From Tissierellales bacterium (GTDB taxonomy: Bacteria > Bacillota > Clostridia > Tissierellales > Sedimentibacteraceae): DNA of 64,000 bases. The notes beneath the pieces are model-generated. The model searched no databases. It was not told the origin of the DNA and saw only the letters and a list, made by a program, of their open reading frames with translations. Positions 41,178 through 62,906 of the stretch are shown piece by piece. The DNA is taken from NCBI GenBank assembly GCA_018433765.1, contig JAHDQO010000007.1, forward strand, positions 1 to 64,000. Reading direction: 5' to 3'. How positions within the stretch are numbered: position 1 is the first letter of the stretch; every line of letters starts with the position of its first letter. A program made the translations under genes and the position numbers.

Positions 41178-43070
41178 TTATATTGTTAATAACTTTTTAC
41201 CCAACAAAGTTAACATTCTAGCATCATCTTTCTTCTTTAAATCAAATGTATATTTACTTTTATAAACCATATAAAATATTAATCCATTTATAGGAATATT
41301 ATGTGGATTAGTTTCTTTAATATAGTTAATCTTCTCTTTTTTACTAATTTGAATTTTTATAGGTCTTTCTAATGGTTTTTCCATTAAATATAAATTATGA
41401 TTAAAAAACTCTACTCTAAATCCATTAAAATATCCTACTTTAATACCTTTTCTAAGAGCAAAATTGATTGCTTCTTCTTCGGTGTTAATTATTGGTTCAC
41501 CTTTATCATTAAGTGAGGTGTTGCATATAATTGGAACTCCTGTATCATCTTTAAATGCTTTGATAATTTTATATATGGTTAAATTTCCTTCTTCTCTATT
41601 AATTGTTTGTATTCTAGCACTATTATCTAAATGAAGAATTGCAGGTACTTTATTAAGCTGGTCTTCCTTTACTTTAAATGTATTTAACATAAATGGCGAA
41701 GCATATGCATCAATAAACCATTCATTAACATCTTCTTCTAAAACTATTGGAGCTACTGGTCTCCACCATTGCCTTTTTTTAATTTCGTTTATTTTATCCT
41801 TACTTTTTATATATCTAGGATCTGCAAGTATACTTCTATTACCTAATGCCCTTGGACCTATTTCTGATCTCCCATTAATCCAGATAATTGGTGAATATTT
41901 GATATCCTCAACAATATCTTTTAAATTAAATTCAGAAACACTTTTTATAAATTTATTATATTTTCCTTTTTTAAGTATTTCATAAATCATCTTTTTACAG
42001 TTCCCATAATATGGATTTTCAAGTTTAAAATTAAATTTATTTAATTTTTTATAAAAAGTATATAGTGCAATTCCTAATGATTGTCCACAATCACTAACAC
42101 ATGGTGGTGCTATGAAATCTTTAAATTTAAACTTATTCATTAAATAACTATTTGTAGGACAATTTAAAGCAAATCCACCTGCTACCGCAAAATATGTTTC
42201 AGATAAATTCAAATCATAATTTTGTAGAACTTTAGTGATATTTTGATCCATTATTTTCATAGACATTTTTTGTATTTCTTTCATTACCATACTTGCTTTA
42301 TTATCTTCTAAAGAAAATCTTGAATCAAATCCATTAAATAATATTCCTGCATCATCTTCTGTTAATTTTTCGACTTTTTTACATATATTATTAAAATATT
42401 CTATAGCCTCCGTAGAATTACTATCTTTAATTTCAATTACTATATCGTCATCTACATAAAGATTACTTGTACTTGCTGATGCAAGTGCCATTAATGATCC
42501 TTCTTGCATATTAAAGTAGGATTTAGCTAAAATCCAAAGCAAAGCTGGCGAAGAAATAGAAAAATACTTAATTTGCCCTTGACGCACTACACAACCTGAG
42601 TATTCATATTTACTCTTAGCATCAGCTTCTATAATATTATCTGAACCAAGATCTACCGACATTCCAATAATGTTTGAATTAAAAAATTTTTGAGTATCTA
42701 TCATTATTGCAGAAAACAAATGACATATACTGTGGTATGCATGTTTAGAAACTTCACCCTTTCGTAAGTAATATTCATTGTTTTTTTGTAATTCTGGAGT
42801 TCCCCATATATCATTCATATTTTCTATAGTTAAATCATATATACTAAGTAACTGATTTATTAAACTTATAGCCTGCTCAACATCATAAAAAGCCAAACTA
42901 TGTTTTTTAATTCCTGTTAATCGTTCAAGTTCCCAATAATGTATTAATTGAATATTCTCTCCATCTTTCTTCCAAAGTGAAATATTCTGATCATGTCTCT
43001 GTGAAACTTCATATACATTGCATAATTTATTTATTTCAATATATGCTGCAAGATAATATCCATCTTTCAT
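41178..43070 (-). CDS. O-carbamoyltransferase (NodU/CmcH/TobZ family), copy 1
   Basis: A 630-residue enzyme of the family that transfers a carbamoyl group from carbamoyl phosphate, via carbamoyl-AMP, to a hydroxyl of an antibiotic or sugar. The N-terminal Kae1-like domain has the metal motif H113-x3-H117 (YHSICHLFSA) and GMSVDLGSDNII. The C-terminal YrdC-like domain has NGRSEIGPRALGNRSIL, KKRQWWRPVAPIVL and CNTSLNDKGEPI. It starts MKDGYYLAAYIEIN. No ribosome site stands before this ATG; a short leader ORF (43076-43108) ends 5 bp upstream and may drive translation. It differs strongly from the second copy at 57066-58820. Confidence 0.92.
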   Translation of the reverse strand: MKDGYYLAAYIEINKLCNVYEVSQRHDQNISLWKKDGENIQLIHYWELERLTGIKKHSLAFYDVEQAISLINQLLSIYDLTIENMNDIWGTPELQKNNEYYLRKGEVSKHAYHSICHLFSAIMIDTQKFFNSNIIGMSVDLGSDNIIEADAKSKYEYSGCVVRQGQIKYFSISSPALLWILAKSYFNMQEGSLMALASASTSNLYVDDDIVIEIKDSNSTEAIEYFNNICKKVEKLTEDDAGILFNGFDSRFSLEDNKASMVMKEIQKMSMKIMDQNITKVLQNYDLNLSETYFAVAGGFALNCPTNSYLMNKFKFKDFIAPPCVSDCGQSLGIALYTFYKKLNKFNFKLENPYYGNCKKMIYEILKKGKYNKFIKSVSEFNLKDIVEDIKYSPIIWINGRSEIGPRALGNRSILADPRYIKSKDKINEIKKRQWWRPVAPIVLEEDVNEWFIDAYASPFMLNTFKVKEDQLNKVPAILHLDNSARIQTINREEGNLTIYKIIKAFKDDTGVPIICNTSLNDKGEPIINTEEEAINFALRKGIKVGYFNGFRVEFFNHNLYLMEKPLERPIKIQISKKEKINYIKETNPHNIPINGLIFYMVYKSKYTFDLKKKDDARMLTLLGKKLLTI

Positions 43071-43500: not shown

Positions 43501-44493
43501 TTAAGCTTTATTCAAAATAATAAACTCATGTAAATTATTTATTACTTCATCTACTATACTGCTGTCAACAATAAAACTAAAATATTGTTCATGAATTTCA
43601 TAATTTATGTAGCATATATTATTTTCTTCTAAATACTTTACTATTTTATTGTTGACTTTATAAGATATCTTTTTACCTATTAAACTAACTATAGATTTAC
43701 CTTTAATGTTTGAATCTTTTTTTGTTATTGATTGGACTCCTTCTTCATTACAATTTGAAATACAAGTACCCAAACAATTGTTAAAGGTAGATCGAATGTA
43801 AAGATTAGTACCTGCTTTTTGTGCTATTGTAACAGCTCTTGGATGTACTACTTTAGCTCCTTTCTCCGCTAATTTACAGCAGCTTTCATAGCTTATTTGT
43901 TCTATTAATTCTGCATCTTTAATCACATATGGGTCTGCAGTCATTACTCCTTCAACATCTGTATATATAATAATTTTTTCTGACTCTACTGCTGTTCCAA
44001 TAGCTACTGCTGATATATCACTACCTCCTCTTCCAAGCGTTGTAATATCACCAGTTTCTGATACACCTTGTGAACCTGCTATAATGGGAATATATCCTTC
44101 ATTTAAATATTTTTTTATTTTATTAGTGTCAACATATTTTACTTTAGCATCAAAATAATTGCTATTAGTAACTATTCCAGCTTGCTGTCCTGATAAACTC
44201 ACCGCTTTATATCCTCTACTAGTTAGTGTTGATGCTAATATTGATGCAGATATTATTTCTCCACAAGAATAAATCATATCCATTTCTCTTTTATTATTAG
44301 TTCCACTAATCCCTCTAACAAGATCCAATAATGTATCTGTAGCATATGCATCACCACTTCTTCCTATAGCTGATACTACAACTATTAATTTATATCCCAT
44401 ATTTATAGCTTTTATTATTTTTTTATAGACAAATTCTCTAGCTGTTTCTGTTGCTACTGATGTCCCACCAAATTTTTGAACAATAATTTTCAT
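43501..44493 (-). CDS. Aspartokinase, shortened regulatory region
   Basis: A 330-residue enzyme that phosphorylates aspartate to 4-phospho-aspartate, the entry to Asp-derived amino acids. The kinase domain (about 1-240) shows VQKFGGTSVA, GGSDISAVAIG, YTDVEGVMTADPYVI and the KGAKVVHPRAV element. Ordinary aspartokinases have about 400-450 residues with two ACT domains; here only about one ACT-like unit (about 260-330) remains. Lysine or threonine feedback may therefore be altered (inference). I use the ATG at 44493, giving the standard MKIIVQKFGGTSV start; the ATG at 44505 is directly against AAGGA. No lysine riboswitch is seen upstream. It may supply a building block to the peptide cluster. 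Confidence 0.88.
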   Translation of the reverse strand: MKIIVQKFGGTSVATETAREFVYKKIIKAINMGYKLIVVVSAIGRSGDAYATDTLLDLVRGISGTNNKREMDMIYSCGEIISASILASTLTSRGYKAVSLSGQQAGIVTNSNYFDAKVKYVDTNKIKKYLNEGYIPIIAGSQGVSETGDITTLGRGGSDISAVAIGTAVESEKIIIYTDVEGVMTADPYVIKDAELIEQISYESCCKLAEKGAKVVHPRAVTIAQKAGTNLYIRSTFNNCLGTCISNCNEEGVQSITKKDSNIKGKSIVSLIGKKISYKVNNKIVKYLEENNICYINYEIHEQYFSFIVDSSIVDEVINNLHEFIILNKA

Positions 44494-44763
44494 TTTTATT
44501 TTCATTCCTTGTATGACATATTTAGGTTAATAAAGGTAACCTGTAATCCTATTTGGGCTGCAATATTATGCATAACGGTAAATTCTATATCTTGACAGAA
44601 TTTTATTTTTATTATAGTATGAAATAAAAGGTTTATTTGTATATAATTAACAATATTCATCTATAAAAATGACATCTATTTAGCTATACCGTCTTTTTTG
44701 GTTTAGTAAATAACGGGAATAATTAATATATTTTGCTTATAATCTAATTGGAAGGAGTTAATG

Positions 44764-50044: not shown

Positions 50045-53000
50045 CTAAAATTTAAACTTAACTTTATCAAAATCAATTATCTTAGTACCTAACTTATTTC
50101 CCTTTTTCTTTTCTTTTATAATATAGTCTGAGATAGCCCTAACTGTAGGTATTTTAAAGATTTCAACCATTGGAACCTGTATCCCTATTTCTTTATGTAT
50201 TTTTGATGCACCTACTATGATTTTTAAAGAATTTGCTCCTAAATTAAATAGATTTTCAGTTACACTATAATCCTCAATATTAAGAATTAATTTCCATATT
50301 TTGTAGATTTTCTCTTCCATTTCACTTTCAGGTTTTGTATAAACTTTTGCAATATATTCACTTTTGTCAAATTCAGGCAAAGCACTTCTATCAATCTTAC
50401 CATTTGGATTTAAAGGCAGTTTGTCTATCTTTATAAAGTATGAAGGTATCATATATGAAGGAAGCTCTCTTGAAATAATCGCTTTTAACTCATCTATGTT
50501 TAATACGTTATCATAGACTATATATGCACATAAATATTTGCTGCCTGCTGAATCTTCTCTATCTATGACAGCTACATCCTTAATTCCCTGTTTTCGTATA
50601 ATAACATTCTCGATTTCTTCAAGCTCTATTCTATAACCTCTCATTTTTACCTGCTGATCTATTCTGCCCCTAAATTCTATATTTCCATCATACAGCCATC
50701 TCGCCAGATCACCAGTTTTGTATATTTTATCAGGAACATACGAACACTTTATAAACCTTTCTTTAGTCATCTCTTTATCCTTATAATAACCTCTTCCTAC
50801 TCCTTCTCCTCCAATATATAACTCACCATCTATACCTGGAGGTAATAACTTCATATTTTTATCTAGTATATATAGGTTAACATTATATATAGGCTTTCCA
50901 ATAGGTACAGGCATAGAAAAATCAATATTTTTTGTTTCTAGTCTATAATAAGAAGCTATATCTGTACATTCTGTCGGACCATAAGTATTTACTATTTGGG
51001 TCAGAAAATTATCAGAACAAATCCAAGATTTAAGTTTTAACAGGTTTATAGATTCTCCGCCTAGAAAAACATATTTAAGTGAACTTAATTTTCTATATTT
51101 AGTATCCTCATTAAAATTAATTAAAGGGTAAAAAACGCCTGGCGCACAATTTATTAATGTTATTTTTTCCCTTTCAATAATATCTGACATTGTATTATAA
51201 TCATAAGACCTAGAAGGATATAGATATAATTTTCCGCCAGTAATTAGGTTAGCAAATAGGTTTTTCTGTGCTAAGTCAAAACTTACAGGAGCTATTAATA
51301 AATTGCAATCATTACTGTTTATGGTAAATTCTTTCACATACCAATTTATCATATTAACAAAGGAATGAGCTTTTATCATGACTCCTTTAGGTTTTCCAGT
51401 AGATCCAGATGTGTATAAAACATACATTAGTCTATTTGGATTATATGTTAGATTAAGATTATCTATTGGTAAAGAACTATTTTTAACAATATCATTTATA
51501 AATACAACCTCACTACTACAATTAACGACTTCTCTATACTCTTTGTGACTAAGAATCATAGAAACATTTGAATTATTAATAATATAATTAACTCTATCTT
51601 GCGGACAGCTTATATCTACAGGTAGATATGCCGCTCCAGCCTTAAGTATGCCGAGTATTCCAATAATCATTTCAAGACTTCTTTCAATGATAATTCCTAC
51701 TATAGTCCCAGCTCCTACTCCTTTTTGTTTCAAATACCATGCAACTTTATTAGCTCTTTTATTAAGTTCGTTAAAACTCAATCGTCCATGTTCTGATACA
51801 AGAGCTATACTATTAGGTGTTTTTTTTACCTGCTCCTCAATAAGTCTATTTAGCGAAATGTTTTTAGGATAATTCATTCTAGTATTATTTAAATCATTTA
51901 ATAACTTATCTTCCTCTTGTGTAGATAGGATATTAATATCAGATAGTCTTTTTTCAGGTTCTTTTATTACTTGAGAAATTATATTTATATAATGCTTTGC
52001 CATCTGTTCTATTCTTTCTTTTTTGAACAAAGAAGCATTATAATCTATGATTATTTCAATTTCACCTGCACTTGTAGTATATATATCAGTTTTTATTCCA
52101 AAAGAAGTAATGTATGCATTAATATTATTATAATTAGTTAATTTCACCCCACCAAAATTAGCCTGATTTTCTTCTAATTCTTTTGAACCTAGAAATGTAA
52201 CCATTGTATCAAATATTGGATTGAACGAATTTTTTCTGATCAATGACATATGCTCAATCATTTTATCAAAAGGTAAATCTTGATTATTATATGCCCCCAT
52301 TATACGTTCATTAACATGGTCTATATATTCAATAAATGTTTTTTGGAAATTAAGCTTTACTCTTATGGGCAATATATTAATAAAAACCCCTATAATATTC
52401 TGAAGTCCTTTATAGTTTCTACCTGGAGAAACAGAACCTACTATAATATCATTCTGACCACTGTACTTTGCAAGTAACAATACATAGATAGAAAATAATA
52501 AACTGTATAGTGTCATATTATGCTTTCTTATATATTTTCTAACAATGCTATTTAACCCATTAGTTAGTTCCTTATTAATTATAAAAATAATCTCTTCTCC
52601 TTTTGGGTCATTGAGAATATTTTCAGGAAAATCAGGAGACAGATTTAATATAGGTATTTCATCTTTTAATATGCTCTGCCAGTATTTTTTCTGTGAGTCA
52701 AAATATCCTGTTTCTAGTAGTTTATCGTACCATACTGAATAATCTCTGTAACGTATATCTTCTTTTGGTAGAGGCTTTCCCTCATATGTATTAACTATTT
52801 CCTTAAAAAGTATACCAGTAGAGATACCATCACAGATAATATGATGAATAACAAATATAAAAAGATATCTATCCCCCTCTGTCTTAATTAGACAAGAGTT
52901 AGCTAAAGGTGGCTTGCTTAGGTCAAAAGGTTTTATTAAATTATGTATTAGATCTTTCTCTTTATCAAATTTTGTTTCAATATATTCTAATTGAAAATCC

Positions 53001-53292: not shown

Positions 53293-54813
53293 TTAACTCC
53301 TCTCGTAAATTGCTTTACTAAAATAATCAGCAAATTTTTTCACCTGAGGCTGCTGAAATATTGAATAATGATCACCATCTATAACATAACTGTGCGTTTT
53401 TCTATTACAGTAATGCTGCCATAGATTTTCATCTAAATCAGACTGTACACTTACCTTAAATAAATGAACAGGACATTGTAATTTTGATTTAGGTCTGTAA
53501 TATTCTCTTGCTCTTCCGTATGTTCTTCCAGTATTAATATAATAGAGAATAGATTTTATATTATTTTGTGCATATTGGGGTACCATTTTTAGAAGATCTT
53601 CATGAATTAGCTTTTTAACTATTTCTAGTTTGTCATTATTATTATTTATATAATCAATAAAAGTTTTGTAAATCACTTTTACATCATGCATTGAATTTAT
53701 TTTATCCTTTATCTCCCCATTATCTAATAAAGACATAAGCATTTGTTTCTCAAACTTGACATTGAATTCTCTATTTAAATTTAAAAGAAAATTAAATTCT
53801 TGAGGTGCTGATGAATCAATTAAACCTAGGAAATTAACGCTATCACCGTTTTTTTCAAGAAGAAGAGCAATTTCAAATGCTATAGTACCTCCTATACTCC
53901 AACCAGCAAGATAATATGGAGCATCTTGATCAATATTTTTAATTAATTTAAAGTATTTAGCAGCAACATCTTCTATTGTTATATTTTCTGGACAATAATT
54001 TTCAATCTTATCTGCTCTTATTCCCCAATAGTTTATATCCTTTCTAAGGTAACTAGCAAACTCTACATATGCTCCAATATCTCCACTGCCATCATGTATT
54101 AAAAATAGATTTTCATTAGTAGTTCCTTTTTTAAGCAGTATAGGTTCATTGTTTTCTTTTTTTTGTTTTATTGCATTAATACAATCCGACTTTTTTATAG
54201 TAACATCTATATCTTGTAATAAATGCTTATCTTGCTTAATAAATTTTTCAATATGAGAGAGCTTAGCATCAGGGAACATTAAAGCTGTACTTAAAAAAGA
54301 TATTAATAATTTAATTAATTTTATTATTATATTGCTATCTACTAAAAAGTCATTGAATTTAAAAGTACAATTTATTCTTTTGTTATCTATATTAAAATTA
54401 ATAATTTTATCAGTTTCGCATATATAATATGTACTTTGATTATGAATACTATCAAAAATTACTATACAATCTGATTTTATATTATCTTTGTTTCTACTTT
54501 CTGATATAATATTGTCCTGATTATAAGTATTACTCACAATATATTTAATGTTATTAAGATATTCTTTATATGTAAGATCTTTTTTTATATCTATGTTGAA
54601 TATATGTACATTATTTTTCCCCCCATTATCTTGATATGCAGTAGGACTTTTTATATCTATTTTTGTTTTTCCATTAAACATAGATATAACAAAAGCTGTA
54701 CCAGATAGAAGAACTAAATATACAGCTAATTGTGAATTTCCGCATATATTAAGAATATTTTTCGCAACAACATTTGGTAACATAGAGATAATTGATGTAT
54801 TTAATTCATCCAC
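53293..54813 (-). CDS. Half-condensation domain fused to a type I thioesterase
   Basis: A 506-residue protein. Residues about 1-205 resemble the C-terminal half of a condensation domain (like residues 1-245 of the 1396-residue synthetase) and lack HHxxxDG. Residues about 225-506 form an alpha/beta-hydrolase thioesterase with GWSIGG (nucleophile Ser306), Asp333 (LIDSSAP) and His482 (GDHYSIF). The thioesterase probably releases or cyclises the peptide, acting in trans because it is not attached to a carrier protein. The half-C may dock it to the last module (inference). The start is GTG, with AAAGGAG 11 bp upstream. Confidence 0.85.
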   Translation of the reverse strand: MDELNTSIISMLPNVVAKNILNICGNSQLAVYLVLLSGTAFVISMFNGKTKIDIKSPTAYQDNGGKNNVHIFNIDIKKDLTYKEYLNNIKYIVSNTYNQDNIISESRNKDNIKSDCIVIFDSIHNQSTYYICETDKIINFNIDNKRINCTFKFNDFLVDSNIIIKLIKLLISFLSTALMFPDAKLSHIEKFIKQDKHLLQDIDVTIKKSDCINAIKQKKENNEPILLKKGTTNENLFLIHDGSGDIGAYVEFASYLRKDINYWGIRADKIENYCPENITIEDVAAKYFKLIKNIDQDAPYYLAGWSIGGTIAFEIALLLEKNGDSVNFLGLIDSSAPQEFNFLLNLNREFNVKFEKQMLMSLLDNGEIKDKINSMHDVKVIYKTFIDYINNNNDKLEIVKKLIHEDLLKMVPQYAQNNIKSILYYINTGRTYGRAREYYRPKSKLQCPVHLFKVSVQSDLDENLWQHYCNRKTHSYVIDGDHYSIFQQPQVKKFADYFSKAIYERS

Positions 54814-54928: not shown

Positions 54929-57028
54929 TCAGCATAACTGAGCATTAAATCTGAATATATCTCCATATATAAGTCTGCTATTTCTATAAACAAGTTCATC
55001 CCCTCTGTATTTTTCAGCATTTTTCTTATATAAATCTTTTTCAATACAATCTATTAATGGCCAATCAACATCTATAACATTAACACCTTTTTTTAGCAAT
55101 TGTTTAGGTATCAAAACTATTAAATCCTGCCACTTGTTATAAGCAGGTTTACTTCCAACTGTTATACCGTTCACTTTTAGCTTAACATTATCTTTTTTAG
55201 ATTCAGGCAGAGGTGATCTATAAGTAAATTCAACTTCAACATCTTTTTTATTATCTGCTATAAGATAAAAAGATGTTCTATTACTTATAAAGCTGTAATA
55301 CGCCTTCTCACCATAAGAAAAATATTCAACATCTGTTAAAGAGTATATGTATGATTTTTCCCTATAATAAGACTCTAGTAGGTCTACTTTTTTTTCATAT
55401 GGTTTAAAGTATTTTATCCTTAGAGTATCTACCTGTTCTTTTATATCGTATCCTACAGTTTTTAACGCATCTACCATTGCATCAGTTAAAGTTATATCCA
55501 TTAATCTACAATCTTTTGGCTGAAACAACATTGGATATTGTGCTATTAGTCCAAACTTACTAAAATAAAGACAGCTCTTATTATATATAAAAGGTACTTT
55601 ACTGCAAATCATATTTATATAGTTTACCATATGGTCTATAACATGTTTTGACGCTTTAATTGCTTGTACACAATGGTAATATAAAATATCATAAGGCTGT
55701 TCTCCATTATGAGCGCAATGAATTGCAGAAAGGAAATGAGCATCTGCAATAACTTTTTTGTCTACTTTATAGTCGGGTTCTTTTATCTTTTCTAAGGAAC
55801 TTATTCTGTTTTTATCTAAGGAAAGAATACATTTTCCAAGACTATTCATTGCTATTTGAATTCCTTTTTCATTCATATGACAATAGTCAATAAATAAATC
55901 ATTTCCAACAACTGCTCCCCCAAAATATTCTTGAAATACTTCCTTAAGATTAACTATTTTAATATTATATTCTGATGCAATTTTAATAACTGTTTCTTCT
56001 ATAAATGATATACATGCAGGTGGAAAAATCCTTCTATAAATACTAGTATCTAATGATTCTTGATAATACTTTCTTGCTTCTTTTGTATTACCCTGTTTTA
56101 GTCTAATTTCAGCTAATACTTTATATACAAATGGATTAGCAGGGTTTATACCTATTAATGCTTTACATATTCTTTCTGCATTCTCATAATCATTATATTG
56201 TAAATAACTATTAAGCTGATCTTTTAATACTAACCATTTCTTTGTTTTTCCACCAGGCCACTGTAGAATCATATCATTGTCTATAATATTCCAATCTTTC
56301 AGATTGAATTCAGGTATAACAAAAACAGCCGGAATTTGATGTTTCATAGCTGTCATCCCAATTGTTCTCATTAAATTATTAATCATTATTTTATATTTAT
56401 CTTGTAATATTTTTTTTATTATTTGAAATCTGTTTTCTGATACTGATGCATCAATTATTTTAGAAGCTTCTTGATCAGTTAGAGGATATAGAGCATTCTT
56501 CCAATTATTACCTGCAAAGATAACTAACATATCTGGCTCTAGTAATGATGATTGTCTGCATAATCTAGTTATATCTTCCATATTAATTGAAATACATGAT
56601 AAATCGACAATTTCATATCCTTCATCATTAGTATTTTCATCCATGAAAGTTTGTAAGTATTTTGCAGGAGTAAAATATGGACTAAATAAATATCCTCTAG
56701 CCACAGATTCACCAATAAATAAAACTCTTTTTTTATTACTTTTTGGTGAGATTACTGGAATGTCTGAATAAAACCAAAATTTACTTGCATATTTTTTATC
56801 TCTAACAAATTGTTTCTTCCCATCTATTATTTTAGGTTTCCATATACCAATATGTTCCATATCTTCCACTTCTATTTTAGAAGAATTATTATTGGACAAC
56901 GGTTTATTATCAAAACCAAGCTCTTTTCTGATTTTCTTTACTTTTTCACTTTTTGTTTCTCCTAGATCTATTAGGTAAGCATATTCTTCTGCTGTCTTCT
57001 TTAGAGATTCTTTTGGTCTTGAACTCAT
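54929..57028 (-). CDS. SGNH/GDSL hydrolase-like protein with TPR insert
   Basis: A 699-residue cytoplasmic protein. The SGNH catalytic blocks are spread out: GES (Ser108, LFIGESVARG), GNN (Asn174/175, FAGNNW) and D381-x2-H384 (IDYCHMNEKG). A TPR-like pair (about 265-330: NDYENAERICKALIGINPAN; KQGNTKEARKYYQES) is inserted before the last block. The remaining 300 residues (about 400-699) are unrecognised and end in a beta-rich part with VNGITVGSKPAYNKWQDLIV. It may be an esterase, acyltransferase or deacylase acting on a carrier-bound or free intermediate. GAGGTG precedes the ATG. It sits 37 bp after the carbamoyltransferase gene. Confidence 0.8.
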   Translation of the reverse strand: MSSRPKESLKKTAEEYAYLIDLGETKSEKVKKIRKELGFDNKPLSNNNSSKIEVEDMEHIGIWKPKIIDGKKQFVRDKKYASKFWFYSDIPVISPKSNKKRVLFIGESVARGYLFSPYFTPAKYLQTFMDENTNDEGYEIVDLSCISINMEDITRLCRQSSLLEPDMLVIFAGNNWKNALYPLTDQEASKIIDASVSENRFQIIKKILQDKYKIMINNLMRTIGMTAMKHQIPAVFVIPEFNLKDWNIIDNDMILQWPGGKTKKWLVLKDQLNSYLQYNDYENAERICKALIGINPANPFVYKVLAEIRLKQGNTKEARKYYQESLDTSIYRRIFPPACISFIEETVIKIASEYNIKIVNLKEVFQEYFGGAVVGNDLFIDYCHMNEKGIQIAMNSLGKCILSLDKNRISSLEKIKEPDYKVDKKVIADAHFLSAIHCAHNGEQPYDILYYHCVQAIKASKHVIDHMVNYINMICSKVPFIYNKSCLYFSKFGLIAQYPMLFQPKDCRLMDITLTDAMVDALKTVGYDIKEQVDTLRIKYFKPYEKKVDLLESYYREKSYIYSLTDVEYFSYGEKAYYSFISNRTSFYLIADNKKDVEVEFTYRSPLPESKKDNVKLKVNGITVGSKPAYNKWQDLIVLIPKQLLKKGVNVIDVDWPLIDCIEKDLYKKNAEKYRGDELVYRNSRLIYGDIFRFNAQLC

Positions 57029-57065: not shown

Positions 57066-58820
57066 CTATATAAAAGAATACAGCCTTCCATCTAATTTAG
57101 TCTCAACAGCTGTATTTGATTTAGCTATAATTGCTTTTATAAGAGTAAACGAATTGTTTGATCTTTCAATTAAAAAATTTCCCAGTACTAAGCAATCAAT
57201 TTTTGTATTAATAAAACAGGTCAATGCATTAAGAGGACTCATTACTATTGGTTCTCCTCTTACATTGAAGGATGTATTAAGAATTATAGGACATCCTGTA
57301 ATTCTATCAAATTCCCGTATTAATCTTGTATACATAGGATTAGTATATTCATTCACAGTCTGAATTCTTGAAGAACTATCAACATGAGTTATAGCTGGCA
57401 GATTGAGATTAGATATTACATTACATGTTAAGAGCATATAAGGTGATGAAATATCTATATCAAAATGTTCCCTCACTTTATCCTCAAGAACTGAAGGTGC
57501 AAATGGTCTAAATGCCTCCCTCTTTTTAACCATAGAGTTAATTTTATCCTTCATCGAACTGACTCTTGGATCTGCAAGTATTGATCTATTACCAAGAGCT
57601 CTTGGACCAAATTCCATTTTTCCTTGAAACCAAGCAATCACTTTACCCTCTGCTAATTTTTTTGCAACAACTTTTATCAGTTCATTACTTGTATATTCAT
57701 AATCACTATATATAATTGAGGTAGCATCTAGTAAATTTTTGATTTCTCTAGAGGAATACTCTGGTCCAAGATATACATGTTCTAATTTTTTGACTTTTAA
57801 CTCATTTTGTGCAATCTTAGAATAAGCGATAGCTGCAGCACCTAAAGCTGCTCCTGAATCATTTGGAGCTGGTTGTATGAATACTCTTTTAAAAGGACCA
57901 TCTCTTAATATTCGGCTGTTAGCTACACAATTAAGTACAACGCCACCTGCCATACAAAGATTTTCCAACTTAGTTTTTTCGTATAAATAAACAGCTTTTT
58001 CTAACATAACCTCTTCAAGTACATATTGCAGACTTCTAGCGATATCTTTGTGAAATTGGGATATCTTAGATTCTGGAATACGCTCAGACTCATCAAAAAG
58101 CTTTATAAGTTCATCTGAATACATTTTCTTGCCAGTTATATAATCAAAGTATTTCATATTAAGTGTATATTGACCATTATCCCCCATATGTATTAGTTTT
58201 CTTATTTTATCAACGTATATAGGATTTCCATATGGAGCAAGTCCCATTACCTTGTATTCTCCATTATTTACCCGAAAACCTAAGTAACTAGTTATAGTAC
58301 TATAAAGAAGCCCTATAGAATCAGGGAAATCAACTGATTTGAATAATTTTATACCCTCTTTATTACCATATCCATAAGTGGTTGTAGCCCATTCTCCTAC
58401 ACTATCAACAGTTAAAATAGCTGCTTTATCAAATCCTGAATAACAGAAACTGCTTGCTGCATGTGATAGATGATGATTAATAAATACAATTGGTCCATCA
58501 TATCCTAAAATTTCTCTTATTTCTCTATTAGGTCTATATGGATCCATGATATTTTTTAATTCCCCTTTTTCTATATCATAACCTGACCATAACTGACGTG
58601 ACAGCTTATTAATAGGTTTTTCATAATAAGCAATTAAATCAACATTAGTTATGGATAGTCCTGCACTTTTTAAACAATATTTAAAAGCATGATAAGGCAT
58701 TGACCTATCATGCTTAATTCTGGTAAATCTTTCTTCTTGTGCAGCAGCTGTTATTCTACCATCCTGCATTATACAGCAAGCTGAATCATGATATAAAGCT
58801 GAAATTCCAATAATATTCAT
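57066..58820 (-). CDS. O-carbamoyltransferase (NodU/CmcH/TobZ family), copy 2
   Basis: A 584-residue carbamoyltransferase. The Kae1-like half begins MNIIGISALYHDSACCIMQDG and has NHHLSHAASSF (H116-x3-H120) and LTVDSVGEWATTTYG. The YrdC-like half has FQGKMEFGPRALGNRSIL, KKREAFRPFAPSVL and NTSFNVRGEPIV. It matches the standard antibiotic-modifying type (CmcH, TobZ, NovN), which carbamoylates a hydroxyl group using carbamoyl phosphate and ATP. Placed inside the synthetase operon, it most likely decorates the peptide or a precursor. TTGAGGT precedes the ATG. Confidence 0.95.
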   Translation of the reverse strand: MNIIGISALYHDSACCIMQDGRITAAAQEERFTRIKHDRSMPYHAFKYCLKSAGLSITNVDLIAYYEKPINKLSRQLWSGYDIEKGELKNIMDPYRPNREIREILGYDGPIVFINHHLSHAASSFCYSGFDKAAILTVDSVGEWATTTYGYGNKEGIKLFKSVDFPDSIGLLYSTITSYLGFRVNNGEYKVMGLAPYGNPIYVDKIRKLIHMGDNGQYTLNMKYFDYITGKKMYSDELIKLFDESERIPESKISQFHKDIARSLQYVLEEVMLEKAVYLYEKTKLENLCMAGGVVLNCVANSRILRDGPFKRVFIQPAPNDSGAALGAAAIAYSKIAQNELKVKKLEHVYLGPEYSSREIKNLLDATSIIYSDYEYTSNELIKVVAKKLAEGKVIAWFQGKMEFGPRALGNRSILADPRVSSMKDKINSMVKKREAFRPFAPSVLEDKVREHFDIDISSPYMLLTCNVISNLNLPAITHVDSSSRIQTVNEYTNPMYTRLIREFDRITGCPIILNTSFNVRGEPIVMSPLNALTCFINTKIDCLVLGNFLIERSNNSFTLIKAIIAKSNTAVETKLDGRLYSFI

Positions 58821-58857: not shown

Positions 58858-59883
58858 CTATTTATTAAATATTAAATTCTCATATACTTTATATTGCAAA
58901 TCAACAATCTTTTTTTCCTGTGTATAGATTTGTTTTAGAATACTTACAGCACTTTGCAATTTTCTATCTATGTTCTGACCAAAATATTTGAAGTTAAAAA
59001 TGGATAAACGGACAAAGGTCCAGTCATTAATTATACCTTTAATTATTGTCAATAATTCTTCATTGCCCACATAATGATAAAATCTATATTGCTTTATTTT
59101 CTTGGCTGTTATTATTTCAGTTATAATCTCAAGTATTTCGTCCACATATTTTTTAAGTAAATTTTGATCTTTTATGATTTTAATCAATCGATCTACCAAA
59201 ATAAAGTAATTGTTCATACTCTCTAATATCAGAGTTCTATTTTCCAGATACATGTTAATGTATCTTAATAAATAATAATTTTTATTATAGTTCTTTTTAA
59301 CTGGAGTATTATCATATTTATAGAACTTAATATATACAGGCGCTTTTAAATAACCATAATGTTGTTTATACCCATCACTTGCTTTTTTTATATCAGTATA
59401 CGAGATTATTTCATGTTTATATCTAAGACTGTTCTTATTTTTATGTTCTAATATATTAAAAGTGCTTGTTAAATTGTCATATCCATATACAAGAAGACCG
59501 TGATCCAAATGTACTAAATTGTATAAATCTTTTCTTATAGATTCATAATAACAGTCTACTTTTACTATAATAGGCATATTGTCATTAAGTGATACTAGAA
59601 TATCGTCTATAATATTGTTGCATTTCATACACTCACAACAATTAATGCCTAATTCATTAAGTAATTGCTTAACTGATTGTCCACTAATATACTCTATTTC
59701 TGTTTGCAACCAAGTATCAGATGAAGTTTTGTAAAGTATTAAATCGTTTAATATAAAGCTATCAATTTTATGGTTAAAGAATTTTAGTACTGAAAATAAT
59801 GAACCATAAAAGCAATCTTTATAAAAAACATCATTAAAAGGTTCAATTCTATTTAGTTTTTTTGAATTTACAGATTTATTCAT
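58858..59883 (-). CDS. BtrH-like acyltransferase/cysteine-protease-fold protein
   Basis: A 341-residue protein whose first 200 residues match the BtrH N-terminal pattern: Cys24 in FYKDCFYGSLFSVL, IIVKVDCYYESI and H125/H128 in NLVHLDHGLLVYGYD. In butirosin biosynthesis BtrH moves an aminoacyl chain from a carrier protein to an amine acceptor. Here it sits next to the A-PCP gene, so it may offload that carrier. The C-terminal third is helical and unrecognised. A Cys-rich CCECMKC lies at 82-88. The ATG overlaps the A-PCP stop by 8 bp (ATGAATAA), implying translational coupling. Confidence 0.75.
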   Translation of the reverse strand: MNKSVNSKKLNRIEPFNDVFYKDCFYGSLFSVLKFFNHKIDSFILNDLILYKTSSDTWLQTEIEYISGQSVKQLLNELGINCCECMKCNNIIDDILVSLNDNMPIIVKVDCYYESIRKDLYNLVHLDHGLLVYGYDNLTSTFNILEHKNKNSLRYKHEIISYTDIKKASDGYKQHYGYLKAPVYIKFYKYDNTPVKKNYNKNYYLLRYINMYLENRTLILESMNNYFILVDRLIKIIKDQNLLKKYVDEILEIITEIITAKKIKQYRFYHYVGNEELLTIIKGIINDWTFVRLSIFNFKYFGQNIDRKLQSAVSILKQIYTQEKKIVDLQYKVYENLIFNK

Positions 59884-61726
59884 AGAGGTTGTTCTTTCTT
59901 ACATATTGTAATAATTTGTTAACGGTATTATAAGTATATATGTCATCTAACTTCAAATTTACACCAATTTTATTTAGGAATATTAATAATCTTGCAGCTG
60001 TTATAGAATTACCGCCAATATCAAAAAAATCATCATTAATGTCAAAATAATCTAAGTTAAGAATCTCCTTCCATATTTCTATTATTTTATCTTCTAATTT
60101 ATTTTTTTTTATAATATTTTTATAGTTTATTTTTAAAGTCTGTAATTTCTTCTTGTCTACTTTGTTGTTAATAGTAAGAGGTAGTTTCTTAACCAAAATA
60201 AAATGTTGTGGAATCATATAATCTGGAAGTCTATTTAATAAAAAAGTTCTAAGTTTGCTAATATTAATATTATTCGTTAAAAAGCAAATAAGTACATTTT
60301 CATCAAATTTATCTTTCTTATTAATTACTACTGCTTCTTCAATTCCATTAAACATTAAAATATTCTTCTCAACTTCACATATTTCTACTCTACTTCCCCT
60401 AATTTTAATTTGATTATCTAGCCTACCAAAATAAGCTATATTTCCATCACTGCATAATGCACCAATGTCTCCTGTCCTATAGATAGTATCATTTTCAATA
60501 ATATTACTTATAAATTTATCTCTTGTAAGCTTAGGCTTATTAAAATAGCCCTTAGCTAAACTTATTCCGCTTATACATATTTCACCTTTTTGTCCTATAC
60601 CGCATAACTCATTATTTTCATTTAGTATATAAACTTTGGTATTCCAGATAGGCTTTCCAATAGAAATTGACTCCAAGTTATCGCCTAGATTCTTATCAAT
60701 TATAAAACATGTTGCATATACTGCTGATTCTGTCATCCCGTATATATTCGCTATTTTAGTTATATGCAACAAACTGTTAAATTTCTTTGCAATAGAAACT
60801 GTAATATGTTCTCCTCCATTAAATATCCATTTAAGATTGGGTAATGGATTAGTAATGTTATTGATTTCAATAAAATCTAAAAATACTTTCAACATAGATG
60901 GTACAAACTGGGTAATGGCTATATTATTGTCTTTTAGAAATAGATATAATTTTTTTGGATCTTTAACTTCATAATCATTTATAATACATATTTTTGCACC
61001 ATTCAATAAGGGAAAAAAAATTTCCCATATTGAATCCGTAAAACTTATTGAAGTCTTAAATGCAATATTATCTTCTCTATCTATATGAAATTTTTCACTC
61101 ATCCAAAACAAAGTATTAAGGATAGCCTTATGGGTTACCATAACACCCTTTGGCTTGCCAGTTGTACCAGACGTATATAAAATATAAGCGAGATCATCAT
61201 CACACACAATATCTTTATTTCTATAAATGAAATTTCTACCATATTGATTATAAGAAGATTCATATTGAACAAAAGAATCCATTACCTGTTTCATATTTAA
61301 TATTGTTTTATCATCCATAACAATATCTTTTTGTAATTCATATTGAAATGAAGGAACTATAATAGTTTTGCATAAAGTATCGTCTATAATATATTTTATT
61401 CTCAGTTTTGGATATGACATATCTATAGGAACATATATACCACCACACTTTAGTATTGCAACAATACATATTATAAGTTCTATACTTCTATCAAGTATAA
61501 CTGCAACAGGATACCCTGGTTCTATTCCACTTTCTAGTAATATATTAGCAATATAATCAGATTTTTTATCTAAGTCACCGTAAGTTAACTTCCTAGTATA
61601 ATCAATTACTGCAATATCTGAAGGATTGATCTTAGATTGATTTCTAATTAGTTCATGGATTGTTACATTTTCAAGATATTTTTTTTCTGTATTATTTAGC
61701 TGTTTATATGCCTCTAGTATTCTCAT
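59876..61726 (-). CDS. Stand-alone A-PCP synthetase with unusual substrate pocket
   Basis: A 616-residue two-domain protein: adenylation (about 15-530; ILYTSGTTGKPKGV, NIYGMTES, YRTGD, NNKVDKKKL) and carrier protein with Ser574 in IGGNS. At the A4 motif it reads FTDSIWE, so the position equal to GrsA Asp235 is Thr230 and the next is Asp231. Pocket residues aligned to GrsA read T-D-W-Q-F-G-I-V-Y. Loss of Asp235 with Asp at 236 recalls beta-alanine-type codes (V-D-...), so the substrate may be a beta-amino acid or other non-alpha acid (inference). The ATG at 61726 is 4 bp after the aminotransferase stop. It may load the A-less module or start the chain. Confidence 0.92.
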   Translation of the reverse strand: MRILEAYKQLNNTEKKYLENVTIHELIRNQSKINPSDIAVIDYTRKLTYGDLDKKSDYIANILLESGIEPGYPVAVILDRSIELIICIVAILKCGGIYVPIDMSYPKLRIKYIIDDTLCKTIIVPSFQYELQKDIVMDDKTILNMKQVMDSFVQYESSYNQYGRNFIYRNKDIVCDDDLAYILYTSGTTGKPKGVMVTHKAILNTLFWMSEKFHIDREDNIAFKTSISFTDSIWEIFFPLLNGAKICIINDYEVKDPKKLYLFLKDNNIAITQFVPSMLKVFLDFIEINNITNPLPNLKWIFNGGEHITVSIAKKFNSLLHITKIANIYGMTESAVYATCFIIDKNLGDNLESISIGKPIWNTKVYILNENNELCGIGQKGEICISGISLAKGYFNKPKLTRDKFISNIIENDTIYRTGDIGALCSDGNIAYFGRLDNQIKIRGSRVEICEVEKNILMFNGIEEAVVINKKDKFDENVLICFLTNNINISKLRTFLLNRLPDYMIPQHFILVKKLPLTINNKVDKKKLQTLKINYKNIIKKNKLEDKIIEIWKEILNLDYFDINDDFFDIGGNSITAARLLIFLNKIGVNLKLDDIYTYNTVNKLLQYVRKNNLYE

Positions 61727-61730
61727 ACTT

Positions 61731-62906
61731 TCAAGCAACTCCCTTGTTAAAGAAGTCTACCAATAAATCAATTCCTTCTTTATATCTGCTGGATGAGAAT
61801 GAAAGTCTTAAAGTAGTAGGTAAACCAAAATCAGATCCAGGAACTGTTGCTACACGTTTTGTTTTTATTAAATCTTTTGCAAGCTCTAAACTGCTTTTAT
61901 AATTATACTTGTCCATATAATCTTTACACTCAAGAGTTATATAGAATCCACCTTTTGAATATATTGCATTTACTAAGTTTACTTCTCTAAACTTCTTAAT
62001 CGTATAATCACGTCTATCTTTATATAGATTAACTAAATAATCAATTTCACTTGGATAATCAATTGCAGTTAATGCACCAAATTGTACTATCGGATCAACT
62101 GTTAGTAAAGTATGATGCTGTATAACTGTTAATGGTTCAACTAATTCATCAGGAACAATACAGTATCCTACTCTTTTAGTATACATTCTGTATGCTTTTG
62201 AGAAAGAATTAGTTGTTATGAAAACTGATTTAGTGTTTTTAAGCTGCATAACTGATTTGCATTCTTCATCAAAATATGTATTACAATATATTTCATCATT
62301 AATAATAACTGCTTTACCATTTACAATACTGTCCATTTTATATAGTTCTTCATCAGTTAGTATATTACCAAGTGGGTTACCTGGTGTATTAATGACAACA
62401 ATCTTAGTTTTATCAGTAAAATTATCCTTGAATGATTCCATGTCAAGTCTTTGAGTTTCTGGATTAATTTTATAATATTTGACAGTTGCTCCTGACAAAA
62501 GAGCAGAAAATTTATATAATGAATAATATGGAATTGGTAGTAATACCTCATCCCCTTTTTTGGACAATAAATAAAATAAGTTCCTGAATATTGTACTTGT
62601 ACCAATACTTATAATAAAATTATTAGGACTTATTTTTACAGAATACTTCTCAGCATAATATGAAGAAAGTTTTCCTTTTAACTCAGGCAGTCCAGCTGGA
62701 AATACAAGTCTGCTTTTACTAGGATCATCTATTTTTTCCTGCATACTTTTAATTATTGCAGGATGCAATGGTAATTCGGATTTCCCTAAAGTCATTCGTA
62801 TAACTTTATTTTCAGGATTTTTCTTATCTAAATCGTAAGCCATCTGGTCTATAACAAACATAAGAAATTTATTATCAAAAAAATTAATATCAGTTCTTAA
62901 TTTCAT
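61731..62906 (-). CDS. Class I/II PLP aminotransferase
   Basis: A 391-residue fold-type I aminotransferase of the aspartate transaminase group. It shows IRMTLGKSELPLHPAI, the PLP phosphate region ISIGTSTIFRN, INTPGNPLGNI and the Schiff-base lysine in TNSFSKAYRMYTKRVGY. In the cluster it probably makes or adjusts an amino acid building block from a keto acid. AAAGGAGG precedes the ATG. It is followed 4 bp later by the A-PCP gene, whose substrate it may help make. Confidence 0.92.
   Translation of the reverse strand: MKLRTDINFFDNKFLMFVIDQMAYDLDKKNPENKVIRMTLGKSELPLHPAIIKSMQEKIDDPSKSRLVFPAGLPELKGKLSSYYAEKYSVKISPNNFIISIGTSTIFRNLFYLLSKKGDEVLLPIPYYSLYKFSALLSGATVKYYKINPETQRLDMESFKDNFTDKTKIVVINTPGNPLGNILTDEELYKMDSIVNGKAVIINDEIYCNTYFDEECKSVMQLKNTKSVFITTNSFSKAYRMYTKRVGYCIVPDELVEPLTVIQHHTLLTVDPIVQFGALTAIDYPSEIDYLVNLYKDRRDYTIKKFREVNLVNAIYSKGGFYITLECKDYMDKYNYKSSLELAKDLIKTKRVATVPGSDFGLPTTLRLSFSSSRYKEGIDLLVDFFNKGVA

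Follow-up and report, generated by a model that had tools for sequence, protein, structure and literature searches.

The window, by which we mean the whole stretch of 64,000 nucleotides analysed here, contains a nonribosomal peptide synthetase (NRPS) cluster in which a thioesterase (TE) is encoded as a separate protein behind what resembles half of a condensation (C) domain. This protein, P0001 (hC-TE), raises the question of what the half-C is and what it does for the TE that follows it. P0001 starts with GTG about 11 nt downstream of a GGAG and stands in an operon-like order on the minus strand, namely P0004, a BtrH_N-like protein, a carbamoyltransferase, an ORF with weak TPR matches, P0001, P0002 and P0003 (Table 1), where the P0002 start lies 5 nt beyond the P0001 stop codon. 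The free A-T protein P0004 could load the last T of P0003, which lacks an A domain. The TPR-weak ORF (54929-57028) encodes 699 residues, for which Pfam and NCBIfam gave nothing stronger. Carbamoyltransferase-family proteins occur on both cluster flanks (41178-43070 and 57066-58820), the match of the former covering only part of the N-terminal domain, and an ORF that adjoins the NRPS genes (43501-44505) appears aspartokinase-like by eye and perhaps serves precursor supply. Another NRPS cluster of this genome (G000:C13; L037, L049) ends in C-T-TE with a last module devoid of an A domain, and also has a separate GHSMG-type TE ORF.

Table 1. Positions of the hC-TE gene, its neighbouring NRPS genes and their parts within the window
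Feature	Position	Strand	Basis
P0001, hC-TE (half-C + thioesterase)	53293..54813	-	ORF, 506 aa
Half-C (condensation C-lobe) of P0001, residues 1-208	54190..54813	-	profile, hhalign, model, half-C family membership
Thioesterase of P0001, residues about 229-506	53296..54129	-	PF00975; nearest relatives are cis TEs
Triad codons of P0001	Ser306 53896-53898; Asp333 53815-53817; His482 53368-53370	-	
P0002, C-A-T NRPS, 1080 aa	50045..53287	-	ORF and domains
C-terminal extension of P0002, residues 1061-1080 KKGNKLGTKIIDFDKVKFKF, proposed half-C plug	50048..50107	-	tail pattern
P0003, hC-A-T-C-T NRPS, 1396 aa	45823..50013	-	ORF and domains
N-terminal half-C of P0003	49279..49968	-	PF00668 positions 196-456, 81.5 bits
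P0004, free A-T protein	59876..61738	-	domains

Residues 1-208 of P0001 make up the C-terminal lobe of an NRPS condensation domain. The first-pass annotation had noticed such a resemblance over about 205 residues ahead of the TE, and this was borne out by HMM, hhalign and a fold model; the profile searches, which could have shown the region to be unrelated to C domains, found it related to them. Pfam reported PF00668 here (E=0.069, residues 101-190 on 363-446) and no other family. An HMM built from 27 C domains of this genome and two genomes of the same order matched residues 10-203 in register on its positions 230-453 (E=7.9e-5; best of 1000 shuffles, 0.053). With hhalign, the single P0001 sequence aligned over residues 1-208 with 41 full C-lobes, a set without either of the window half-Cs, at a probability of 88.9% and a score of 39.0, where 200 shuffles reached at most 11.6 and 83 natural segments at most 13.6. 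AlphaFold2 predicted a compact lobe (pLDDT 85.3, pTM 0.84) when supplied with the C-lobe alignment, and therefore not independently of the hhalign result; from the single sequence the pLDDT of P0001 was 33. Foldseek and VIA-align matched the half-C model to the C-lobe of solved C domains and never to the N-lobe (2jgp 301-522 with Z 20.0 and rmsd 2.5 over 186; also SrfA-C 225-450), and as this match spans residues 1-198, the region does not have the beta-hairpin docking fold known from SLiM/bHD pairs. Compared with a full PF00668 domain, P0001 has the C-lobe in both fold and sequence, and an N-lobe with HHxxxDG is absent from its ORF. The gap to the next upstream ORF, itself intact, is 115 nt, so no N-lobe was overlooked; its loss through a frameshift or its encoding elsewhere was discarded, as there is no upstream room and the genome contains no orphan N-lobe. 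The N-terminal half-C of P0003 is genuine as well (Table 1).

The TE part matches PF00975 over residues 235-495 (E 1e-27) and has the alpha/beta-hydrolase Ser-Asp-His arrangement of a type I TE, the Ser306-Asp333-His482 triad being intact and numbered as originally annotated. The best named matches in the annotated plasmid collection were mostly NRPS proteins. A TE-alignment search gave 80 genome loci, and the 23 closest were compared; these are 28-39% identical to the P0001 TE, and 21/23 close NRPS ORFs that carry C, A or T motifs, while one of the other two (L119) is cut off and the last (L118:1999-2913, Paenibacillus zanthoxyli) is a lone TE ORF of 305 aa near the P0001 TE in sequence. A free-standing type II TE, as the domain had been read at first, is ruled out by these nearest relatives, which are cis TEs ending NRPS chains. 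Judged by its relatives, the P0001 TE is type-I-like and of the chain-terminating kind, so that a chain-releasing TE has here been parted from its carrier and attached to a half-C. It resembles the type I TE of C-A-T-TE modules in sequence, triad and PF00975, but is not fused behind a carrier: hC-TE is free-standing, and the half-C takes the place of the preceding carrier. A related TE in Acetivibrio alkalicellulosi (L112; G564) has GWCIGG, where Cys replaces Ser, and an Asn in place of the Asp; it belongs to a protein of 1886 aa in whose N-terminal 550 aa the motifs applied here recognise no C, A or T.

A C-lobe in this position might be a non-docking remnant of a deletion that fused it to the TE, with the TE acting in trans in an editing-like role, and the long tree branch and weak Pfam score of hC-TE would fit such an origin. 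In sequence comparisons, however, the half-C of P0001 groups with other half-Cs, apart from full C domains. When three hC-A half-Cs (P0003 of the window, G047 and G462) were made into an HMM, hC-TE scored 51.0 bits, and with an HMM of the two other-genome half-Cs alone it scored 33.9 bits, whereas 30 control HMMs from random triples of full C-lobes gave at most 25.5 bits. In the C-lobe tree hC-TE fell in clades with hC-A half-Cs (94/89/66 UFBoot), its exact place being uncertain owing to a branch of 2.4 against 0.75-0.94 for hC-A, which makes it the most diverged half-C. The relationship first proposed between the two half-Cs of the cluster is real, as seen from 24% identity across 201 aa (E 8e-7, two-sequence search), the half-C HMM and the tree grouping. 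Half-Cs lack 18 columns present in full C-lobes, some lying ahead of the IGMFVNT motif and the rest between LQN and KFDL, and the same 18 are missing in hC-TE. The C-lobe regions lost in half-Cs face the N-lobe. Half-Cs also share residues that full C-lobes seldom have, such as a His replacing E/D/K, and hC-TE keeps 6/9 of the half-C-specific residues within its range (S27, K83, V118, I123, H124 and F140). It lacks the YWxxKLxG stretch that stands ahead of the lobe in other half-Cs, and this absence, along with the strong divergence, means that hC-TE may have lost or altered its function. The usual reading of truncated C domains is that they are inactive, as in the sections of PMC7253712 that deal with ThdA; yet the grouping, the retained half-C-specific residues, the compact predicted lobe and the chain-terminating kind of TE all speak against a remnant, and we consider that origin distinctly unlikely.

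When 391 genomes of the class were searched with a half-C profile, half-Cs turned up in several genera, scoring above full C domains, and they open many NRPS subunits (hC-A-T) among Clostridia and one further family of the phylum. No other hC-TE fusion was found in 27 genomes of the family, 249 of the order and 391 of the class, where the large searches scored 4-7 candidates per genome and were not exhaustive, nor with P0001 in genome_contigs or viral_contigs. A protein of 713 aa (L092:1897-4035; G332:C116) has an internal half-C with a partial A domain and T, and its gene adjoins an acyltransferase-like gene and an FkbH-like gene.

The gene directly upstream of a half-C starter usually encodes an NRPS whose last domain is a complete C with HHxxxD, and with hC-A starting the downstream protein the module is split between C and A. 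Pairing of the half-C with an N-lobe was rejected, since the C domains that end the partner proteins are complete and have HHxxxD. The upstream proteins end in DIDFNF, EGVEFNF, DDDFDF, DAEFDF, EVDFDF, DIQFNF, DEIHFNF, DIDF and EVNFSF, with the consensus [hydrophobic]-x-F-COOH. A first tail pattern, written after inspecting these ends, matched 12/15 upstream proteins against 0/116 other NRPS-like C-termini. Two junctions in a family of the same phylum outside the class (f181) have the tails IQLNF and IELNF, and the broader pattern adopted after them matched 14/18 upstream proteins against 3/119 other NRPS-like C-termini (Fisher 4e-13, which overstates independence because the tail sequences are related); 2/4 of its misses come after a gene that ends in a TE, and these two are unlikely to be junctions. 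Among loci fetched later, the tail was present in 23/29 junctions, five of them used before, and in 18/24 of the rest, of which 13 are relatives from one family; the misses read DEDFGDI (three rows, two from the same junction), DEDFGVI, ETDFNI and LELDDLKI. Pattern-matching tails occur in at least seven genera. G925 and its relatives have subunit frames of about 3990, 5365 and 2605-2632 aa, where half-Cs start the second and third subunits and tails end the first and second; these sizes match those of the iturin/mycosubtilin synthetase subunits, to which they may correspond. Their proteins are hC-A, unlike the hC-TE of P0001.

The tails extend beyond NRPS proteins. At some junctions a gene for a B12-binding radical SAM enzyme lies between both NRPS genes and its product bears a similar tail; the one in G047 is PhpK-type by NCBIfam. 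One locus (L354; G1004:C7:608000-627000) has two successive junctions, each with a tailed NRPS, a tailed radical SAM protein and hC-A, and the NRPS/radical SAM tails are VDFTF/IDFTF at the first and TDFNF/TEFNF at the next. The junction tails are DDDFDF and DDDFGF in G440 and AEFDIN and ADFSI in G047, and tail likeness was greater within than between junctions in 3/4 junctions, a number too small for testing. Another radical SAM protein (L353:4390-6759; G440:C14) has a C-terminal half-C of its own (PF00668 191-444), ends in NQEFNF and is encoded directly ahead of an hC-A protein. The half-C thus moves between enzyme types, and hC-TE is not the sole enzyme fused to one.

The shared ancestry of the half-Cs and the association of tails with their junctions favour the docking device which the first-pass annotation had proposed, and the part that falls away is the partner, which would be a tail and not the other half-C. 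Pairing of the two half-Cs with each other, as had also been suggested, and binding of either one to the carrier at residue 1353 are not supported, and the genomic pattern ties the half-C to a C-terminal tail. This carrier, named earlier for co-folding with the half-Cs, lies on P0003, which ends in YKEKGGH without a tail. A candidate for the tail-bearing partner expected of a half-C is present in the cluster as P0002, where the C-terminal extension lies past the T domain (which ends at 1056) and closes with DFDKVKFKF, the only such tail among the NRPS proteins of the cluster (last 8 residues, 50048-50071).

We propose that the half-C is a docking socket through which hC-TE plugs onto the P0002 tail, giving C-A-T with a TE in trans, and we regard this as an even possibility. 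Membership in a family whose members resemble sockets for short F-x-F-ending protein tails implies that the half-C probably plugs the TE into a neighbouring assembly-line protein, and P0002 is favoured as that partner because a TE of this kind follows C-A-T in cis. The socket would be a lone C-lobe that has lost the N-lobe and two C-lobe segments; it may take up the short [hydrophobic]-x-F-COOH tail of its partner, which perhaps adds a beta-strand at the edge freed by the lost segments. The hC-TE socket would in this manner hold a type-I-like TE on the P0002 tail, the P0002 carrier would hand its acyl or peptidyl chain to the TE in trans, and the result would be a C-A-T-TE module divided between T and TE. 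P0002 ends in T, unlike most tail-bearing proteins, which end in C, and its tail is basic where other tails are acidic. A crude test gave no charge complementarity, as window half-Cs and tail are both basic and the others both acidic. P0002 was not recovered as a recent sister of cis C-A-T-TE modules, its C domain not being a clear sister of theirs.

The P0002 tail may instead serve the half-C of P0003, with hC-TE docking elsewhere or competing for the tail. This would agree with the other clusters, where the tailed protein is encoded directly upstream of the half-C gene as P0002 is to P0003, and with hC-TE being the more diverged of the two window half-Cs. It would, however, place a tailed T before hC-A-T and leave a junction devoid of a C domain, unlike the pairs of tailed C with hC-A, and hC-TE would then have no visible partner, as P0002 is alone among the cluster's NRPS proteins in having a tail; we therefore hold it to be possible but rather unlikely. 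As C domains bind the donor carrier via the C-lobe, a lone C-lobe could also recruit a carrier directly, bringing T2 of P0003 or the T domain of P0002 up to the TE. The TomB donor carrier of tomaymycin touches only the C-lobe (PMC11186497), which would suit such recruitment, but neither the C-terminal tails found with half-Cs nor those on the carrier-less radical SAM enzymes would be explained by it, and we find it highly improbable.

We compared the proposed socket and tail with known systems. SLiM/bHD pairs of NRPS and PKS are alike in joining a short upstream C-terminal motif with a small folded N-terminal domain downstream, in the sections of PMC9113145 and PMC13324335 that describe them. 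Here, in contrast, a C-lobe of about 210-250 aa and not a beta-hairpin domain stands at the N-terminus, the tail is [hydrophobic]-x-F-COOH, and the common half-C junction is C|A inside a module and not carrier|C. The C* of ThdA (thermoactinoamide) is alike by its description as an incomplete C ahead of the first A domain; it is portrayed there as probably inactive or affecting A selectivity, and neither docking nor a tail is proposed in the sections on it (PMC7253712). The PCP-like adaptor of TomB is likewise a core-derived, non-catalytic NRPS domain that recruits a partner protein, but the adaptor is a degenerate carrier whereas the half-C is a C-lobe, and the adaptor binds directly to the donor carrier (PMC11186497). 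The 2021 docking-domain review covers COM, PAX, bHD/SLiM, helical bundles and others, and its sections consulted here do not mention docking by a C-lobe (PMC9113145). No description of half-C docking was found in the literature covered, which included few subscription journals.

Truncated C domains at the starts of NRPS subunits have so far been given the reading of dead remnants. We think it rather probable that half-Cs and [hydrophobic]-x-F tails constitute an undescribed class of NRPS docking pair, which joins modules split at C|A, recruits radical SAM enzymes and, in this cluster, a TE. If half-Cs are sockets for a tail of four to six residues, the subunit order in many Bacillota clusters would become readable from sequence, tailoring enzymes and TEs would be assignable to their sites, and the pair would offer a small portable plug and socket for joining NRPS parts.
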